From: Fidelibacterota bacterium
GTDB lineage: Bacteria > Fidelibacterota > Marinisomatia > SCGC-AAA003-L08 > D37C17
Direction of reading: 5' to 3'
Assembly: GCA_014381415.1 (NCBI GenBank)
Contig: JACNLQ010000058.1
Location: 1 to 64,000, forward strand
Length of the DNA stretch: 64,000 bases
The position numbers and the translations under genes are program-made. The notes beneath the pieces are model-generated. The model worked only from the letters and a program-made list of their open reading frames with translations, made no database searches and was not told where the DNA came from. Every line of letters begins with the position of its first letter. Positions within the stretch are counted from its first letter, which is position 1. Positions 324-55,611 of this stretch are shown here, piece by piece.

Positions 324-2552
324 CTAATTCACTCCCAACTGCTGTTTTACTACTTCAAAATCAGAGGTAGGTAGTTTACAGGAAAAATTTTGACAGACAT
401 ATACCCTGGGGCTGCCATCTTTATTAGGCTGATAAAATCCCACAAAGGGGATGGTATTTTTTAAGCTTTCTCCCCCGCTTTTACCATATACTATAACCCG
501 GTTAGGCATATAAATGGACTGAATATCCTCCAGCATTTTCTGAGTAGTAGATTTATTTTCATCCCCAAAAACCAATACCTCATGGGATGGACCAAAAGCA
601 AACTCAGCCGCCTGCATCATCATGGAATAGCCTGATGAACTCCTGTTTAAATAGCCAGAGAATGAGTTTAATATTTGAAATGTAATGTCTTCAAAATCAG
701 GTCGGGAGGTCATGCGGGCTAAACGGATAAAATTGAATGCGGAGACTGAATTTCCCGATGGTATAGCGCCATCATAGACCTCTTTACTCCTCACCAATAA
801 CTGTTCTCCTGATGAAGCAGTGAAGTAAAATCCATTATTATCAAAATCCCAGAATTGGTCAATCTGATACTCGGAAAGATCCATGGCAATTTCCAAATAT
901 TTCTCATTGTAGTTCATTTCATAGAGTTCAATAAGTGCCCAAATGGTGAAGGCATAATCATCTAATACGCCTGTAAGTCCGGAATTCCCATTGCGGTGGC
1001 GTTTCATCAGACTGCCATCTTTTTTCATCAAATTTTCCAGTATGAAATCCATAGCTTTTTGGGAAGCTTTGGCATATTTATCATTATTTAATACAGCTCC
1101 TGCCCGTGCCATTGCAGCAATCATGAGACCATTCCAATCGGTGAGAATTTTATCATCTTTTTGGGGATGTATCCGATCTTCTCTAACATTAAATAATTTA
1201 GTCCTAATTATTTCAATCCTCTCAGTAAGCCCTTTTTCAGTGATGTTAAACTCACTGGCAAGTTGGGAATTATTTTTGGTTAAATGAGGAATGTTAGTTT
1301 TATGGCGATAGCCTTCATTCCAATTGCCTCCCTTTCTTATATTGAAAACCTTCTGGTAAAATTCAGAATCTTCCGATCCCAGAATTTCATCCAATTCCTT
1401 TACATTCCATACATAGAATTTCCCTTCTTCACCTTCACTGTCTGCATCTTCAGCAGAGTAAAATCCCCCTTCTGGGGAGGTCATATCTCGGAGTACATAT
1501 TCCAATATCTCATCAACAACTGTAGAGTAATAAGAATCCTCTGTAGCCTGATAGGCGTCTAAATAGGCTTGTACCAATATGGCCTGATCATAGAGCATTT
1601 TTTCAAAGTGTGGTACCAACCAGCGTGCATCAGTGGAATAGCGATGAAAACCAAATCCTACTTGGTCGTACATACCCCCATTGCGCATAGATTTCAGGGA
1701 ATATTCTGCCATTGAAAGGGCTTGGGATGTTCCAGTTCGTTTAAAGTATTTTACAAGGAATGAATAATCATGTGCCTTAGGAAATTTTGGTGCTTGACCA
1801 AATCCGCCTTGGTGTTCGTCATAGCGATTTGAAAAAGCAGAAAAGGCTTTATCTGCCACATTAGGTGAAATTTCTCCAGCGCTGGTTCGATTGGTCTGAT
1901 TTCTCTGGAGCCGTTTGGTAAGATTAGCTGCATCTGTTATAAGTGAATCACGGTTATTTTGCCATACATCTTTTACTTTTGGTATAAGCTCCATCATGCC
2001 AATACGTCTTCCCCGTGATGTTTTGGGAAAGTAGGTTCCTGTAAAAAAGGGTTGTTTGTCCGGAGTCATAATTACTGTCATTGGCCATCCTCCACGATTG
2101 TTCATCATTTGGGTGACTTCCATATAGACATTATCGATATCCGGGCGTTCTTCCCTGTCCACCTTCACGCAAACAAAGGCATCGTTCATGAGCCCTGCTA
2201 CCTCATCATTTTCAAAGGACTCATGCTCCATCACATGGCACCAATGGCAAGTGGTATATCCAATAGATAGGAAAATGGGCTTATCCAACTCTTTTGCCCG
2301 CTGAAATGCTTCATCTCCCCAGGGATACCAGTCCACCGGGTTGGCTGCATGTTGCAGCAAATAGGGACTGCTTTCAAAAACAAGCCTATTCCAAAGTTCT
2401 CCCCCATCCTTAGAAATGTTAATTAATTCTTCCTGCACAGGAATTATAGGTCGTCCCTGGTTATCATATTGGTATTCAGCTTGAATTGTTGTGGTATTTT
2501 CAGAGCTCATTAAAAACCCTCCTGCCATAAGTAAATATTTAATTGAATTCAT
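324..2552 (-). CDS. DUF255 thioredoxin-fold protein (YyaL/SPATA20 family)
   Basis: A 742-residue protein of the YyaL/SPATA20 family. The N-terminal thioredoxin-like domain (about residues 55-220) carries [18 protein letters not shown] and the CHWC redox motif at residues 102-105, followed by HVMEHESF. The C-terminal two thirds match the (alpha/alpha)6-barrel part of the family, including the acidic [13 protein letters not shown] stretch. The exact reaction is not established for the family; a role in disulfide or sugar chemistry is only inferred. The length is normal for the family. The first 14 residues are somewhat hydrophobic and an alternative Met lies at position 15, so the true start and any export are uncertain. 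It is the last gene of the minus-strand run and is separated by 168 bp from the thymidine phosphorylase gene upstream. Confidence 0.88.
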
Positions 2553-2720
2553 GGGATTAAATTAGTGATGTTATCTTATGAAAAAAACGAAATATACAAA
2601 AGAATTTTGTCGAAGTGAAAAAGACCATATTTAAATTTCAACAATAAAAAGATTGTCTTCGATAAATAAAAAGGATTTCCCTAGAATTTAAACCCTTGAT
2701 ATAATCTAACATTAATGAAT

Positions 2721-4001
2721 TTAATAGATTAAGATGGGGATAGTAGGTTTGTTTGGCTGGACAGTAAAAATAGTTTTTAAGAGGAATTTCGCTTTTTCAA
2801 TTTTATTGGGATTAGAACAGAAATATTCCAGTATCACCTCACCAGTATTCACACTATCACCCACCTTCTTGTGAAAAATGATTCCTACCGTTGGATCTAA
2901 AATATCATCCTTATAAACTCTTCCACCACCCAACTGCACTATAACCTTTCCCAATTCAAGAGTATTAAACCCAGAAATATAGCCACTTTTTTCAGCAAAT
3001 ATCTTTTGTTTATATTTGGGAACATGAATACTGGGATCTGCTATACTTTCGAATGCTCCCCCATGAGCTACTACCATCTCTTCAAATTTTTCAAAAGCGG
3101 TACCATTTTCAATATTGGATGTTAAAACTCTCGAAGGATTTTCAATTCCTGCGATTTTTAATGCTTCTTCGCCAAGATGATAAACCACTTCCATTAAATC
3201 AGTTGGACCATTTCCCTTTAAACATTCAACAGCCTCAACAATTTCACAATGAAGTCCGGCTGATTTTCCCAAAGGTTGATTCATATCTGTAAAAACAGTA
3301 GATACTTTTAAGCCATATTGTTCTCCCACCGTTTTAAGGAGTTCACCCAATTCTCTTGCTGCGGATAAAGTTTTCATAAATGCGCCGTTGCCCACTTTTA
3401 TATCCAATACCAAACCTTGAATTCCTTCTGCAATTTTCTTACTCATGATACTTCCACAAATCAGAGGGTTGGATGCTACCGTATTGGTTACATCCCGCAG
3501 TGCATAAATTTTACCATCTGCAGGGCAGATTTCAGCAGTCTGCTCTATCATAGAAACACCCACTTTTTCCACCACTCGCTGAAAATTTGATAAAGATAGG
3601 GCTGTTTTATATCCAACTATGGATTCCAATTTATCAATGGTTCCACCTGTATGAGCAAGACCCCTGCCTGCCAGCATGGGAACGTAACATCCACAGCTAG
3701 CCAATAACGGACCCAGTATCAGAGATACCTTATCTCCAACTCCACCGGTGCTATGTTTGTCAATTACGAACCCATCCAAGTGTGAAAAATCAAGCGTTAC
3801 CCCGGAATTTAACATGACCTTAGTATATTCTAAAGTTTCTGCATGATTCATTCCCATTTCAAAAACAGCTTGTAACCAGTGGGTCATACTATCATCAGAA
3901 ATATCACCGGAAGTAAAACCATTCACTACCTCTTGAATTTGTGATTTTGAAAAACTATTTCCACTATTCTTTGTCTGAATGATTGAATCTATAGATGCCA
4001 T
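2721..4001 (-). CDS. deoA: Thymidine / pyrimidine-nucleoside phosphorylase
   Basis: A 426-residue enzyme of nucleoside phosphorylase class II. It would cleave thymidine (or uridine) with phosphate to free base and (deoxy)ribose-1-phosphate in the cytosol, for pyrimidine salvage. The phosphate-binding signature DKHSTGGVGDKVSL lies near residue 82, and AGRGLAHTGGTIDKLES, typical of the family, near residue 111. The length fits (E. coli DeoA is 440). I cannot tell thymidine-specific from broad-specificity (Pdp) forms by eye. The gene starts 13 bp downstream of the gamma carbonic anhydrase stop, so the two are probably co-transcribed. Confidence 0.92.
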   Translation of the reverse strand: MASIDSIIQTKNSGNSFSKSQIQEVVNGFTSGDISDDSMTHWLQAVFEMGMNHAETLEYTKVMLNSGVTLDFSHLDGFVIDKHSTGGVGDKVSLILGPLLASCGCYVPMLAGRGLAHTGGTIDKLESIVGYKTALSLSNFQRVVEKVGVSMIEQTAEICPADGKIYALRDVTNTVASNPLICGSIMSKKIAEGIQGLVLDIKVGNGAFMKTLSAARELGELLKTVGEQYGLKVSTVFTDMNQPLGKSAGLHCEIVEAVECLKGNGPTDLMEVVYHLGEEALKIAGIENPSRVLTSNIENGTAFEKFEEMVVAHGGAFESIADPSIHVPKYKQKIFAEKSGYISGFNTLELGKVIVQLGGGRVYKDDILDPTVGIIFHKKVGDSVNTGEVILEYFCSNPNKIEKAKFLLKTIFTVQPNKPTIPILIY

Positions 4002-9780: not shown

Positions 9781-12589
9781 TTTGTACCTCTAACTTTTCT
9801 CTTAATGTATTAATAATTTCTTCTAACTGACTATGCTCGTCACGTTTTATCTTTGCAGCATTTTGGAGTTCTTCAATCCTTTGTGCTTCTTTTCTTTCAA
9901 CTCTATCCCGTAAGGAATTAACTGTTTCCTTTAATTGTTTATTTATATCATTAACACTTGCTACAGATTTTTGTATTCTTTCATCAATATCTATTTGTGT
10001 CTTTTCCAAGGTATCTCGCAAATTATTCACTGTACTTTTTAATTGTTTATTTTCATCATTGGCTCTGGCTACCGCTTTTTGGACTTGCTCTTCTTGCCCA
10101 ATTTGAGTTTTTTCAAGCTCATCCCGAATGGTGTTAACAGTACCCTTTAACTGCTTATTTTCATCATTCACTATTGCAACATATTTTTGAATTCTCTCTT
10201 CGATGTCAATTTGACTTTTTTCTAAAGTATCACGTAAATTATTTACGGTTGATTTTAATTGAGTGGTTTCATCGTTAGCCCTTGCTACCGCTTTTTGAAT
10301 TTCTTCTTCTCTACCAATTTGTGTTTTTTCCAGCTCATCCCGTAGCGAATTTACTGTACCTTTTAATTGTTTATTAACATCATTTACACCTGCTACAGAT
10401 TTTTGGATTCTTTCATCAATATCTATTTGTGTTTTCTCCAGAGAATCCCTCAAGTTGTTCACAGTACCCTTTAATTGAATATTCTCATCGTTCACTCTGG
10501 CAACCGCTTTTTGCACCTCATCTTCCCTTCCAATTTGAGTCTTTTCAAGTTCATCGCGAAGGGAATTCACCGTGCCTTTCAACTGTTTATTTTCATCATT
10601 CACTATAGATACTGATTTTTGAATCCTCTCCTCAATATCAATTTGAGTTTTTTCGAGTGAATCTCTTAGATTATTAACGGTGTCTTTTAACTGAGTATTC
10701 TCATCATTCACTCTGGCAATAGCTTTTTGAACTTCTTCCTCCCTGCCTATTTGCGTCTTCTCTAATTCATCACGAAGAGAATTCACAGTTCCTTTTAACT
10801 GTTTATTAACATCATTTACACTGGCTACAGATTTTTGAATTCTTTCCTCAATATTAATTTGGGTCTTTTCAAGGGTATCTCTAAGATTATTTACTGTATC
10901 TTTTAATTGGGTATTTTCGTCATTTGCTTGAGCCACTGCTTTTTGAACCTGCTCTTCTTGTCCTATTTGAGTTTTTTCCAGTTCATCCCGAATAGAATTC
11001 ACTGTACCTTTCAGTTGTTTGTTTTCATCATTCACAATAGCTACTGCTTTCTGGATGCGCTCCTCAATATCAATTTGAGTTTTCTCTAAGGAATCACGAA
11101 GATTATTTACTGTATCTTTTAGCTGGGTATTTTCATCATTTACCCTGGAAACAGCTTTCTGGATTTCCTCCTCCCGCCCAATTTGAGTCTTTTCCAGTTC
11201 ATCCCGCAGGGAGTTCACGGTTCCTTTTAACTGTTTGTTCACATCGTTTACTACTGCCACCGCTTTCTGGATTCTTTCCTCAATATCAATTTGAGTTTTC
11301 TCCAATGAATCACGAAGATTATTTACCGTATCCTTTAATTGAGTATTTTCATCATTTACACGGGCAACCGCTTTCTGGATTTCCTCCTCCCGCCCAATTT
11401 GAGTCTTTTCCAGTTCATCCCGTAGGGAGTTAACCGTTCCTTTCAATTGCTTATTTTCATCATTTACCAGAGCAACTGATTTCTGAATTCGCTCTTCAAT
11501 GTCAATTTGAGTCTTCTCTAAAGTATCACGAAGATTGTTTACCGTATCTTTTAGCTGAATATTTTCATCATTTACTCGGGAAACAGCTTTTTGAATTTCC
11601 TCTTCTCGCCCAATTTGAGTCTTTTCCAGTTCATCCCGTAGCGAATTAACTGTTCCTTTGAGTTGTTTATTTGCATCATTAACAACCGCTACCGCTTTCT
11701 GGATTCGCTCTTCAATATCAATTTGAGTCTTCTCTAGTGTGTCACGAAGATTGTTTACAGTATCTTTTAACTGGGTATTCTCATCATTTACTCTGGCAAC
11801 GGCTTTTTGAATTTCTTCTTCCTTGCCAATTTGAGTTTTTTCCAACTCATCACGGAGGGAGTTTACTGTACTCTTCAATTGCTTATTTTCATCACTCACC
11901 AATGCTACAGATTTTTGGATTCGCTCTTCAATATCAATTTGGGTTTTCTCCAAAGTGTCCCGAAGATTATTAACGGTACCTTTTAATTGAGAGTTTTCAT
12001 CGTTCACCATTGCTACGGCTTTTTGAATTTCCTCTTCCCTACCAATTTGCGTTTTCTCTAGTTCTTTCCGAAGGGAATTAACCGTTTGTTTAAGCTGTAT
12101 ATTTACATCATTTACCACCGCAACAGACTTTTGAATTCTATCTTCAATATCAATCTGCGTTTTCTCTAAAGTGTCTCGAAGATTATTAACGGTTCCCTTT
12201 AATTGTTTATTTTCATCATTTACTTTTGCAACCGCTTTTTGAACACCTTCCTCATGGATAATTTTAGATTTTTCTAATTCCTGACGAAGTGAATTAACCG
12301 TCCCCTTTAATTGTTTATTTTGATCATTGGAGCGTGCTACCGCATGCTGAATTTCTTCCTCTTTATTAATTTGAGATTTCTCCATTTCAGATCGTAAGGT
12401 ACCTATTGTTGTCTGTAATTGAGATATTTCATCAGCAGATTCGAAACGCGTTTTCTGGATTTTTTCCTCTTGTTTTATTTGGATTTTTTCCATTTGGCTG
12501 CGTAATGCAGAAATGGTGATTTTGAGATATTTATTTTCTTTCTCGAAATCGATTGGCTGGTTTGTTGATCCTGAAGAATCAGAGGTCAC
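9764..12589 (-). CDS. Giant repetitive coiled-coil protein (36-residue repeats)
   Basis: A 941-residue protein, nearly all one helix: about 25 units of 36 residues, in two alternating forms. One form reads ...QLKGTVNSLRDELEKTQIG and the other ...QLKDTVNNLRDTLEKTQID, giving a 72-residue (216-bp) super-repeat. A period of 36 equals ten turns at 3.6 residues, neither heptad nor 11-mer, so an unusually straight bundle is possible. There is no signal peptide, membrane segment or globular domain. The start is GTG immediately after the TAA of the upstream gene; the end overlaps the cyclase gene. Function is unknown; a filament, spacer or scaffold is an inference. Near-identical DNA units make copy number likely to vary. 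Confidence 0.85.
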   Translation of the reverse strand: MTSDSSGSTNQPIDFEKENKYLKITISALRSQMEKIQIKQEEKIQKTRFESADEISQLQTTIGTLRSEMEKSQINKEEEIQHAVARSNDQNKQLKGTVNSLRQELEKSKIIHEEGVQKAVAKVNDENKQLKGTVNNLRDTLEKTQIDIEDRIQKSVAVVNDVNIQLKQTVNSLRKELEKTQIGREEEIQKAVAMVNDENSQLKGTVNNLRDTLEKTQIDIEERIQKSVALVSDENKQLKSTVNSLRDELEKTQIGKEEEIQKAVARVNDENTQLKDTVNNLRDTLEKTQIDIEERIQKAVAVVNDANKQLKGTVNSLRDELEKTQIGREEEIQKAVSRVNDENIQLKDTVNNLRDTLEKTQIDIEERIQKSVALVNDENKQLKGTVNSLRDELEKTQIGREEEIQKAVARVNDENTQLKDTVNNLRDSLEKTQIDIEERIQKAVAVVNDVNKQLKGTVNSLRDELEKTQIGREEEIQKAVSRVNDENTQLKDTVNNLRDSLEKTQIDIEERIQKAVAIVNDENKQLKGTVNSIRDELEKTQIGQEEQVQKAVAQANDENTQLKDTVNNLRDTLEKTQINIEERIQKSVASVNDVNKQLKGTVNSLRDELEKTQIGREEEVQKAIARVNDENTQLKDTVNNLRDSLEKTQIDIEERIQKSVSIVNDENKQLKGTVNSLRDELEKTQIGREDEVQKAVARVNDENIQLKGTVNNLRDSLEKTQIDIDERIQKSVAGVNDVNKQLKGTVNSLRDELEKTQIGREEEIQKAVARANDETTQLKSTVNNLRDTLEKSQIDIEERIQKYVAIVNDENKQLKGTVNTIRDELEKTQIGQEEQVQKAVARANDENKQLKSTVNNLRDTLEKTQIDIDERIQKSVASVNDINKQLKETVNSLRDRVERKEAQRIEELQNAAKIKRDEHSQLEEIINTLREKLEVQNGNEN

Positions 12590-52801: not shown

Positions 52802-52834
52802 AAAACAAAAATCCCTCCGTTTCAGAAGGGATTT
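52802..52834 (-). terminator. Terminator of tRNA-Val
   Basis: On the minus strand AAATCCCT and AGGGATTT form an 8-bp stem with a 10-nt loop, followed by TTGTTTTA. It lies 33 bp beyond the tRNA 3' end. Confidence 0.75.
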
Positions 52835-52841
52835 GAGCCTG

Positions 52842-52866
52842 CACCTCTTAACGAAGTGTATAGGTG
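52842..52866. repeat. GTAA..GTGTA hairpin, member 1
   Basis: CACCT / AGGTG enclose CTTAACGAAGTGTAT. It shares its loop core with the members at 53026-53143 but has a different stem. It touches the 3' end of tRNA-Val. Confidence 0.55.
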
Positions 52867-52941
52867 TGGGCGGTGAGGGACTCGAACCCCCGACCGCCTG
52901 GGTGTAAACCAGGAACTCTGAACCAACTGAGTTAACCGCCC
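52867..52941 (-). tRNA. tRNA-Val (UAC)
   Basis: On the minus strand GGGCGGT pairs with ACCGCCC, the anticodon stem CTGG/CCAG encloses a loop with anticodon TAC, and the T arm TCGGGGGTTCGAGTCCC is normal. The discriminator base is A; CCA is not encoded. A broken partial copy lies just upstream. Confidence 0.93.
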
Positions 52942-52974
52942 ATTTTATTGCCTGGGTGTAAACCAGAAACTCTG

Positions 52975-53008
52975 CCCATCTACACTGCAATCCGGCATTT
53001 ACGATGGG
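52975..53008. repeat. GTAA..GTGTA hairpin, member 2 (inverted, long loop)
   Basis: CCCATC / GATGGG enclose TACACT-(11 nt)-TTTAC, which read on the other strand is GTAA...AGTGTA. It has the same loop ends as the other members but a longer loop, and a unique stem. It interrupts the tRNA-Val copy. Confidence 0.5.
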
Positions 53009-53025
53009 TAAAAACCAACTGCTTG

Positions 53026-53050
53026 CCCGCCGTAATGAAATGTAGGCGGG
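53026..53050. repeat. GTAA..GTGTA hairpin, member 3
   Basis: CCCGCC / GGCGGG enclose GTAATGAAATGTA: a perfect 6-bp stem and the 13-nt family loop. Confidence 0.6.
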
Positions 53051-53060
53051 AGATAATTTA

Positions 53061-53143
53061 TCCCTCGTAACAAAGTGTAGAGAGATTTATCCCTCGTAAC
53101 AAAGTGTAGAGGGATTTATCCCTCGTAGTGTAACGTAGAGGGA
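53061..53143. repeat. GTAA..GTGTA hairpins, members 4-6, tandem
   Basis: Three 25-bp hairpins at 53061-53085, 53090-53114 and 53119-53143, separated by TTTA. The stems are TCCCTC/GAGAGA (one mismatch), TCCCTC/GAGGGA and TCCCTC/GAGGGA. The loops are GTAACAAAGTGTA twice and GTAGTGTAACGTA once. Confidence 0.65.
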
Positions 53144-53187
53144 CCGCCCATTATTTTTCCCCTGAGAAATTCAGGAATTCTTTCATA

Positions 53188-55611
53188 CTAGGCCTCTGCC
53201 GTAACCACAGATTGTGTTTTCTGAGGTTTAGGAGGTTTTTTACCTTCCATCCCAAGAGCTAATTTCAACACATCTGATACATCTTTCACAAATGAAATCT
53301 TTAAGTCTTTCAATACTTTTTTGGGTATATCCACCAAATCCTTTTCATTCTGTGCCGGAGCCAAAATATGGGTTAAGCCAGAACGGTGTGCTGCTGTAGA
53401 TTTTTCCTTCAATCCACCAATGGGAAGCACATTCCCCCTTAGAGAAATTTCACCTGTCATGCCCAATCTTTCCTTCACTGGTTTATTGGTTAAAAGTGAC
53501 ACCAATGCCGTAATCATTGCCACTCCTGCTGAAGGTCCATCTTTAGGGATTGCACCTGCTGGTACATGCACATGGATATCCATTTTTTTATAAAAGGTAG
53601 GATCTAGTCCCAGCTTATGGGTATTTGCCCGGACATAAGAATAAGCTGCCTGTACAGATTCCTTCATCACATCGCCCAGCTTGCCTGTAAGTTTCAGGGC
53701 ACCTTTTCCCGGCATTTTAGTGGCTTCAATAAATAGAATATCTCCACCGAAAGCAGTCCACGCCAAACCTACCACGATCCCTGGCTGATGGGTTCGTTCT
53801 GCGATTTCTGAAATGAATTTTTTTGGTCCCAGGTAATCATACACTTTTTCAGGGGTAACATTGATAGATTTCCGTTTTCCATCAGTAATTTCACGAGCTG
53901 CCTTTCTGCACACATTTGCTAATTGCCGCTCTAAATTACGTACACCAGCTTCACGGGTATAGGACTCAACTAACAGACAAATAGATTCATCACTGAATTT
54001 TATTTCCTTTTTGCGAAGTCCATGTTCTTTAATTTGTTTGGGAAGAAGGTGGTCTTTTGCAATCTGGAGCTTTTCTTCCATAATATATCCAGAAAATTCC
54101 AATACCTCCATCCTGTCTCTTAATGGTCCAGGGATTTTATCAACTCGGTTTGCGGTAGTAATAAACATAATGTTTGACAGATCAAAATCTACCTCAAGGT
54201 AATGATCATTAAAGGAAAAATTCTGTTCTGGGTCCAGCACCTCTAATAAAGCGCTAGATGGATCGCCACGAAAATCCATCCCCAGTTTATCAATTTCATC
54301 CAACATGAAAATAGGATTATTTGTACCAGCTTTTTTCAGACTGGCAATTATCCTGCCGGGTAACGCACCAATATAGGTTCTGCGGTGGCCTCTAATTTCA
54401 GCTTCATCTCGGACTCCACCCAATGAAATTCGCACAAATTCCCGTCCCATCGATTTTGCAATAGACTTTCCAATGGAAGTTTTTCCAGTACCGGGAGGAC
54501 CCCCAAAACAGAGAATAGGACTTTTCAATCTTTCCCCTTTTTTCACTCGGGATTTCTTTAAATTGCGTACGGCTAAATGCTCCACAATTCTTTCTTTTAC
54601 TTTGTCTAAACCATAGTGGTCTGAATCTAAAACTTCCTGGGCAAAATTAATATCTTCATTATCCTTTGATTCCTTAGCCCAAGGCAATTCAACCAACCAA
54701 TCAAGATAGGTACGTGCCACTGTATATTCAGGAGATTGGGCAGGAATTTTCTTCATACGGATTAATTCTTTTCGGGCAACCTTTTCCACTTTTTCCGGCA
54801 TTTTAGCTTCTTTGATTTTTTCATCCAGTTCATCTAATTCCACTCCGCCTGTATCTTCACCTAGTTCTTTCTGGATGGCTTTCATTTGCTCCCGAAGAAA
54901 ATATTCCCGCTGTGATTTTGAAATTTCATCTTGCACATCGGACTGAATCTTATCACCCAACTCAATACGATGAATTTCCCGGTTAATGAGAACGGTACAT
55001 TTTTCCAATCGCTTTTTGATATCCAATTCTTCCAATATATCCTGCTTCTCATTAGTAGAGATATTCATAAGTGAAATCGCCTTATCTACTAATTTACCCG
55101 GATTTTGAATATTGCTTAAAACGTGGAACTGTTCTTCACTGAGATAAGGTGCAATTTCAATGAGCTTTTTAAATATTTCTTGAAGGTTTACTGTGATTCC
55201 TTCTATTTCTGCTGAGGGAGTTACAACACCCCGAACTTTTTCTACCAATCCTTTATAATATGGGTCAGGGTCTAAAAATTGTTTCACCTTTACTCGGTCT
55301 AATCCCTGCACAATGGCTGACCTGGATTTATCTGGCATATCAAATACTTTCATAACCATAGCCAAGGTGCCGTATTCATATAAATCAGATGCCTTTGGAT
55401 TTTCCACAGACCCATCTTTCTGAGCTACAACCACAATATATTTCTTTCCACCCTTAGGTAGATCAGCAATCAACTTTAACGATTGTTCCCTACCTACATA
55501 AATGGGGATTATCTGTTGAGGGAATAAAACGGTATTTCGTAGAGGTAATACTGGATATATTTCAAGCACATCCTCTTTGTTTTCCGTTATTTTGGGGGTT
55601 TCATCCGCCAT
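53188..55611 (-). CDS. lon: ATP-dependent protease Lon
   Basis: An 807-residue LonA. The N-terminal substrate domain (PVLPLRNTVLFPQQIIP) is followed by AAA+ with Walker A GGPPGTGKTSIGKS and Walker B FMLDEIDK, and a protease domain with the catalytic Ser in DGPSAGVAM and Lys in the following LPIGGLKEK region. It degrades misfolded and regulatory proteins in the cytosol. The length is normal and it is a single-gene unit. Confidence 0.96.
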   Translation of the reverse strand: MADETPKITENKEDVLEIYPVLPLRNTVLFPQQIIPIYVGREQSLKLIADLPKGGKKYIVVVAQKDGSVENPKASDLYEYGTLAMVMKVFDMPDKSRSAIVQGLDRVKVKQFLDPDPYYKGLVEKVRGVVTPSAEIEGITVNLQEIFKKLIEIAPYLSEEQFHVLSNIQNPGKLVDKAISLMNISTNEKQDILEELDIKKRLEKCTVLINREIHRIELGDKIQSDVQDEISKSQREYFLREQMKAIQKELGEDTGGVELDELDEKIKEAKMPEKVEKVARKELIRMKKIPAQSPEYTVARTYLDWLVELPWAKESKDNEDINFAQEVLDSDHYGLDKVKERIVEHLAVRNLKKSRVKKGERLKSPILCFGGPPGTGKTSIGKSIAKSMGREFVRISLGGVRDEAEIRGHRRTYIGALPGRIIASLKKAGTNNPIFMLDEIDKLGMDFRGDPSSALLEVLDPEQNFSFNDHYLEVDFDLSNIMFITTANRVDKIPGPLRDRMEVLEFSGYIMEEKLQIAKDHLLPKQIKEHGLRKKEIKFSDESICLLVESYTREAGVRNLERQLANVCRKAAREITDGKRKSINVTPEKVYDYLGPKKFISEIAERTHQPGIVVGLAWTAFGGDILFIEATKMPGKGALKLTGKLGDVMKESVQAAYSYVRANTHKLGLDPTFYKKMDIHVHVPAGAIPKDGPSAGVAMITALVSLLTNKPVKERLGMTGEISLRGNVLPIGGLKEKSTAAHRSGLTHILAPAQNEKDLVDIPKKVLKDLKISFVKDVSDVLKLALGMEGKKPPKPQKTQSVVTAEA

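Follow-up and report, generated by a model that had tools for sequence, protein, structure and literature searches.

A mobile hairpin repeat of REP-like architecture in a split tRNA-Val copy, and its possible link with small GIY-YIG genes at tRNA loci

REP elements with RAYT/TnpA-REP transposases are GTAG- or CGTC-tagged palindromes (PMC3733652, PMC6006769, PMC3686654), and long-hairpin REPs consist of a tetranucleotide at the foot, a basal stem, a bulge of 1-3 nt and a second stem (PMC6006769, PMC3733652). The Rickettsia palindromic elements (RPEs) of R. conorii end in the tetranucleotide tag CGTC (PMC3733652). A different kind of mobile DNA has been described in fungal mitochondria, where mobile ORFs coding for endonucleases are accompanied by duplicated gene tails, as in atp6 of Allomyces and in atp6, atp9, cox2 and nad3 of Glomus; the mobile ORF of Glomus atp6 is of the LAGLIDADG and not of the GIY-YIG type (PMC3630166).

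The window analysed here, i.e. the whole stretch of 64,000 nucleotides from the Fidelibacterota contig JACNLQ010000058.1, contains six hairpins at 52842-53143, exactly where an earlier note on this DNA had placed them (Table 1). Five of them are copies of one 29-nt unit composed of a tetranucleotide (CTTG, CCTG or TTTA in the window) and a 25-nt hairpin, in which a 6-bp stem closes a 13-nt loop of the form GTA-NN-NNN-NN-GTA, the inner two positions of which are mostly paired. From the outside inwards, the hairpin is made up of an outer stem of 6 bp, an internal GTA/GTA loop, an inner stem of at least 2 bp and a small loop. The hairpin that the note had described as inverted and with a longer loop is hpB, which indeed has the opposite orientation and a 22-nt loop and follows the same plan as the other five. 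The inner loop pairs vary among the copies of the family (AC/GT, AT/AT, GC/GC or GT/AC), and the odd loop of hpE is therefore regarded as a normal variant. HpD1 is the first of three tandem 29-nt units, which appear as a tandem repeat with a period of 29. An intrinsic terminator function was considered and rejected, as none of the six hairpins was reported as a terminator and a separate one is present behind the tRNA-Val gene. A search of Rfam at the gathering score yielded only tRNA matches and left the hairpins without a family, and no integron attC R/L boxes (GTTRRRY...RYYYAAC) were seen in them by eye. Elsewhere in the window, a large array of 108/216-bp repeats covers about 2.4 kb (9905-12328).

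Two features of the region were absent from the earlier note. An intact tRNA-Val gene stands between hpA and the other five hairpins, and a second, broken copy of this tRNA (52950-53149) is split by hairpins at the acceptor/D junction and within the D-loop. The hpA unit starts directly after the discriminator base of the intact tRNA, which is on the minus strand, and hpB sits in the D-loop of the broken copy (GGTT^CAGAG). Starting at the lon gene and following the minus strand, the order is GGGCGGT (acceptor), hpE, hpD2, hpD1, hpC, CAGTTGGTT (D-loop) and hpB, followed by CAGAGTTTCTGGTTTACACCCAGGC (anticodon arm), 8 nt, the intact tRNA-Val, hpA and the terminator. At the same place, eight relatives have lon, approximately 15-20 nt, one tRNA-Val and then a terminator, with no hairpin. 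The broken copy therefore occupies the place of their only tRNA. What the hairpins have split is a redundant tRNA-Val piece; the intact gene has presumably been kept by selection. The window contains this copy of a tRNA piece but no GIY-YIG ORF.

Table 1. Positions of the hairpin units, tRNA-Val sequences and neighbouring features in the window
Feature	Position	Hairpin	Strand	Remarks
hpA: CCTG + 25-nt hairpin	52838..52866	52842-52866	+	stem CACCT/AGGTG; R1 match 26.3 bits
hpB: TTTA + long-loop hairpin	52975..53012	52975-53008	-	stem CCCATC/GATGGG; R1 match 25.8 bits
hpC: CTTG + 25-nt hairpin	53022..53050	53026-53050	+	stem CCCGCC/GGCGGG; 44.0 bits
hpD1: TTTA + 25-nt hairpin	53057..53085	53061-53085	+	stem TCCCTC/GAGAGA, 5/6 pairs
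hpD2: TTTA + 25-nt hairpin	53086..53114	53090-53114	+	stem TCCCTC/GAGGGA; 45.4 bits
hpE: TTTA + 25-nt hairpin	53115..53143	53119-53143	+	loop GTAGTGTAACGTA, inner pairs GT/AC
Intrinsic terminator behind tRNA-Val	52806..52834		-	10-pair stem + T run; separate from the hairpin family
Intact tRNA-Val (anticodon TAC)	52867..52941		-	ARAGORN; Rfam tRNA 65.9 bits
tRNA-Val copy: D-stem 3' strand + anticodon arm CAGAGTTTCTGGTTTACACCCAGGC	52950..52974		-	direct repeat, 24/25 identical
tRNA-Val copy: D-loop piece CAGTTGGTT	53013..53021		-	
tRNA-Val copy: acceptor 5' strand GGGCGGT	53143..53149		-	position of the tRNA behind lon in relatives
lon protease gene	53188..55611		-	Pfam; conserved upstream neighbour, anchors the empty-site comparison

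An earlier alignment of chosen hairpins was biased, and the evidence for stem pairing rests on a set of sequences found by their loop only and on the alignment with slid or shuffled partners. The loop-found set comprises every sequence in 60 related genomes that fits the loop pattern with no more than one mismatch, irrespective of its flanks, with identical copies counted once. In the 22 sequences thus obtained, 93 of the 132 stem pairs were Watson-Crick pairs, compared to 63.6 +/- 4.3 when the right arms were shuffled, and none of 20000 such shuffles matched the observed pairing. The outer four pairs alone gave a similar picture, with 60 of 88 formed versus 34.2 +/- 4.0 after shuffling. In the alignment, 78% of the cells were paired, versus 60.5 +/- 2.7% with shuffled and 39-62% with slid partners, the pairing signal being lost upon sliding, and changes on both sides of a pair were seen in 29 cells versus 9.8 expected. 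The proposal that the stems differ and yet remain complementary around a constant loop was therefore upheld, with pairing far above that of the shuffles.

The covariance model search of this genome and its relatives that the note had recommended gave 50 matches at E <= 0.5 in the genome from which the window derives (1.90 Mb, 88% complete), 3 to 12 matches in each of five genomes of the same genus, and none in 16 of 17 other genomes of the family. Three more distant genomes had 26, 18 and 15 matches, those with 26 and 18 representing two other families, so that the copies are patchily distributed among related Candidatus Neomarinimicrobiota genomes. At the orthologous tRNA-Arg(acg) gene, the stem is TCTTC/GAAGA in the species of the window and TCCTC/GAGGA in two others. 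A motif confined to this site, or copies with unpaired stems, had been named as the outcomes that would speak against a selected or mobile structure; what was found are dispersed copies with paired stems. These hairpins represent genuine copies of a small mobile repeat made of four letters and a 25-letter hairpin. All the readings proposed here are drawn from the sequences of metagenome-assembled genomes, in which tandem hairpin arrays may be misassembled, but the pattern recurs across many assemblies made independently, some of them consisting of a single contig.

About half of the hairpin loci sampled from the same genome adjoin tRNA genes. Ten of 21 sampled loci are within 100 bp of a tRNA, with a chance probability of approximately 1e-17, calculated for the fetched loci only and on the assumption of 45 tRNAs per genome. 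The placements are clean and are found in the D-loops and T-loops of tRNA-like sequences, after discriminator bases and in the loops of other copies, with tandem pile-ups. Duplicated 5' pieces of tRNAs are interrupted in the D-loop (AGCT^CAGTTGG, GTAGCT^CAATAGG) at L077 (Asn), L091 (Thr), L093 (Arg) and L094 (Arg), and duplicated 3' pieces of a tRNA-Met and three tRNA-Arg in the T-loop (TTCGAA^TCGTG, TTCAAG^TCCCTG) at L087, L081, L093 and L078. Other hairpins directly follow the discriminator base of tRNA-Val, tRNA-Met and tRNA-Arg genes, and nesting of one copy inside the hairpin loop of a second, at CCAATCG^TAA, was seen in two genomes (loci L080 and L097). Each insertion was compared to an uninterrupted reference, namely the intact gene beside it. 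No target duplication was found at the insertion points compared in this way, and neither stem arm was present beforehand in the references of the D-loop, T-loop and hairpin-loop sites. Both arms thus come with the insert. The earlier note had considered, besides a selected RNA or DNA structure, a mobile palindrome by which the flank is copied in inverted orientation; the mobile palindrome is borne out by the dispersed copies, their patchiness among relatives, the precise, nested and tandem insertions and the hairpin-free site, whereas an origin by copying of the flank is not supported. In other hairpin-rich genomes, 7 of 40 hairpin loci had a tRNA within the ~1.3 kb examined, and in G049, G058 and G034 most copies are located away from tRNAs. 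At a further locus of the same genome as the window (L092, G000:C40:5900-11000, 2478-2590), the 3' end of a protein gene is tandemly duplicated and each duplicate contains a hairpin of the family, the plan being that seen at tRNAs.

GIY-YIG matches in the genome of the window number five: that of UvrC and those of four small ORFs, three of which are flanked by the hairpin family. Two of the small ORFs are located between hairpins behind tRNA-Arg genes, and one is near two hairpins. At L119 (G000:C51:2629-5817), a tmRNA gene is followed by a broken GIY-YIG ORF with two TAA codons and then by a hairpin-split copy of the tmRNA 3' end. To extend these observations, 65 small GIY-YIG ORFs were collected from 60 genomes, UvrC and most of a third GIY-YIG group, in which the match begins at profile position 10-14, having been left out before the tRNAs were inspected. 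A tRNA or tmRNA gene was found within 400 bp of 43 of the 65 ORFs. All 43 are on the same strand as that gene, 40 of them behind its 3' end, and a partial tRNA copy is nearby in 37 cases. Two of 40 GIY-YIG ORFs without a tRNA were next to a tmRNA, and the rest were at no Rfam family. In 80 named genomes from other phyla, most of them Patescibacteria, Omnitrophota or Bacteroidota, a scan with a 5-row GIY-YIG alignment placed 38 of 80 ORFs at a tRNA or tmRNA gene, all 38 on the same strand. Six positions, Y5, Y15, G17, H29, E61 and K65, are invariant in 21 ORFs and correspond to active-site residues of the GIY-YIG core. A profile of the tRNA-linked ORFs matched UPF0213 (8e-17) and SLX1 (3e-8) chains. 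SLX1 is a eukaryotic protein that works with SLX4, and we know of no mobile-element role for UPF0213.

Redundant tRNA pieces thus arise widely beside small GIY-YIG genes, and the order of the parts is recurrent: intact tRNA, GIY-YIG gene, T-arm with hairpin and tRNA tail, or the 5' mirror image thereof. At these loci outside the window, the endonuclease ORF is directly behind the complete gene and is followed by the second copy of the gene tail. The lengths of 23 tail copies range from 12 to 31 nt, most being 15-18 nt; the copies begin mostly in the T-loop, and a perfect stem of at least 6 bp abuts 12 of them, versus 179 of 1380 random places (13%). In two same-genus comparisons of sites with and without the GIY-YIG unit, the native flank was found behind the tail copy, so that the unit has the complete tRNA on one side and the native tail on the other. 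The T-loop hairpins of the tail copies share one position and are of several sequence types, and those of other genomes differ in sequence (TCCCGA...TCGGGA), so that the hairpin does not have to belong to the same element as the GIY-YIG gene. Most copies of the hairpin lack an adjoining GIY-YIG gene. The papers searched contained no account of tRNA-linked GIY-YIG genes with broken tail copies in bacteria. At L133 and L139, a single tRNA or tmRNA is followed by two tandem GIY-YIG units, which looks like a renewed invasion of the restored tail. A second GIY-YIG group, mostly of the H-K..FTSKY type (L134, L140, L144, L181, L193, L194, L195, L196 and L205), is not at tRNAs and is flanked by direct palindromic repeats of the GTCATTGCGAG or GTCATTCTGAG type of up to 246 bp; this group possibly mobilises the widespread GTCATTGCGAG/GTCATTCTGAG-type repeat.

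The reading that we favour, and to which we attach about an even chance, is that of a mobile REP-like palindrome which a GIY-YIG element, similar to the fungal mobile ORFs with gene tails, would carry or provoke. The GIY-YIG protein would cut tRNA genes in the T-arm, and its gene, in the way that the fungal ORFs carry a gene tail, would spread with a spare tRNA tail or head, so that the tRNA survives. The hairpin may be the end of the element, or a break that makes the leftover tRNA copy uncuttable, and the hairpin copies without GIY-YIG gene, including those of the window, may be non-autonomous leftovers. Structure rather than stem sequence would be recognised, and the stem sequences could therefore drift. 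Recognition of structure by the GIY-YIG protein is plausible in view of the profile match to SLX1, a structure-specific endonuclease, and this protein may be the mobilising enzyme of the palindrome. Against this model, clean insertion without target duplication is atypical of double-strand-break repair. A bolder version, which we put forward tentatively and consider doubtful, is that of a class of bacterial mobile elements, in which a tiny SLX1-related GIY-YIG nuclease would recognise hairpins instead of a sequence and insert hairpin-ended cassettes into the loops of tRNA or tmRNA genes together with a spare gene tail through which the host gene would survive, the dispersed palindromes in many uncultured phyla being its non-autonomous copies.

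Alternatively, the hairpins could belong to the REP-type repeats and be mobilised in single-stranded form by a tyrosine HUH transposase (RAYT/TnpA-REP), with the tRNA fragments as dispensable, loop-rich targets. The short palindrome with a foot tetranucleotide and an internal bulge is present (4+25 nt, GTA/GTA bulge) and fits published long-hairpin REPs (PMC6006769, PMC3733652), and insertion into loops without target duplication fits single-strand targeting. The hairpin counts correlate with those of Y1 transposases (Spearman 0.53), but since they track the GIY-YIG counts as well (Spearman 0.50), they do not identify the mobilising enzyme. The tag, however, is neither GTAG/GTGG nor CGTC: among 16 well-paired loop-found copies, CTTG was found six times, CCTG three times and TTTA twice, and GTAG not at all. 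No Y1 gene (PF01797) flanked by the repeats was found in the genome of the window, where the only Y1 gene detected has a sub-threshold Pfam score and is accompanied by unrelated palindromes of its own. As a control, 13 Y1-transposase loci were examined; they were devoid of tRNAs and, apart from a single 11-bit match put down to chance, of hairpins of the family. Three genomes with 8-12 hairpins each (G001, G030 and G032) gave no Y1 match, although these genomes are incomplete. With both the tag and the transposase lacking, the family is not classed as REP; the gene search and the local search at Y1 loci gave no support to RAYT as the mobiliser, and we regard this explanation as rather unlikely. 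The only Y1 gene of the genome adjoins what looks like a diversity-generating retroelement (L016, G000:C74:7686-10937; ORFs 2333-3142, 2011-2340 and 1207-1800, all on the minus strand), in which a reverse transcriptase adjoins an Asn-rich, variable-region-like ORF; the palindromes of this transposase are AACCGTGTT...AACACGGTT.

It is also conceivable, if on balance doubtful, that two independent processes meet at these loci, GIY-YIG elements making spare tRNA pieces and unrelated palindromes landing in neutral, loop-rich DNA. The several hairpin sequence types at one T-loop position would agree with this, as would the location of most hairpins of G049, G058 and G034 away from tRNAs; the association of the family with three of the four small GIY-YIG ORFs of its own genome and the roughly fourfold excess of abutting stems at tail copies over random sites argue against it. 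Covarying stems around a constant loop and tandem 29-nt arrays could result from enzyme-free template switching and slippage, one arm being copied from the other; tRNA genes rich in hairpins readily undergo such events, and these could account for a homogenisation of the arms after insertion. As an origin of the family, this process is improbable, because the same loop and tetranucleotide recur in other families and in dozens of unrelated places, the inserts arrive with both of their arms, neither of which is in the flank, and the insertion points are exact and recur at equivalent tRNA positions. Finally, the location of several hairpins exactly behind the discriminator base and their conserved pairs might indicate a functional RNA, i.e. 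a tRNA trailer or leader processing signal or a terminator under structural selection. A 312-nt strand folds better than its shuffles (z -4.0), a value that includes the tRNA and pre-chosen palindromes. Such a role is very improbable, as a normal terminator follows separately, no Rfam family was matched, copies are also found in intergenic sequence without tRNA and inside broken tRNA pieces, and relatives lack any hairpin at the same tRNA.

The hairpin-split tRNA pieces and the GIY-YIG genes across the phylum point to a type of mobile DNA of which little has been described. In the genomes of uncultured bacteria, small GIY-YIG ORFs are frequent, and those sampled have no settled role; their link with tRNA and tmRNA genes suggests a testable one, that of selfish elements of tRNA genes. 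If the GIY-YIG reading is true, the origin of one family of dispersed palindromes would be explained without the usual REP transposase, and the natural insertions into DNA loops could show how palindromes choose their targets.

Among described systems, the REPs are close in architecture, and the statement of the earlier note that no named element has this form was thus nearly right: the long-hairpin plan is a known one, and the tetranucleotide is another and no REP-type transposase was found alongside. The hairpins share with REPs the palindrome of 20-40 nt, the foot tetranucleotide, the basal stem, the short bulge and the second stem, as well as subfamilies with different stems, tandem groups and a patchy distribution. 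Unlike REPs, they insert into the loops of tRNA-like sequence and of one another. The RPEs are likewise palindromes dispersed in a bacterial genome, but they have another tag and apparently another stem and loop. Elements inserted by tyrosine recombinases at tRNA 3' ends also duplicate the tRNA 3' end at the far side of the insert; at the loci described here, no integrase was seen, the units are of 29-130 bp or a single GIY-YIG gene, the break is in the T-loop and the leftover copy is split by a hairpin. The fungal mobile ORFs and the tRNA GIY-YIG loci are alike in having a gene restored by a new tail, an endonuclease ORF and a leftover native tail, and the mobility of the former is driven by the endonuclease, as we propose for the latter. 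The bacterial units differ from them in their location in chromosomes and in tRNA or tmRNA genes, in their GIY-YIG proteins of ~80 aa, in their tails of 12-31 nt, and in the hairpin that they carry in the leftover copy.
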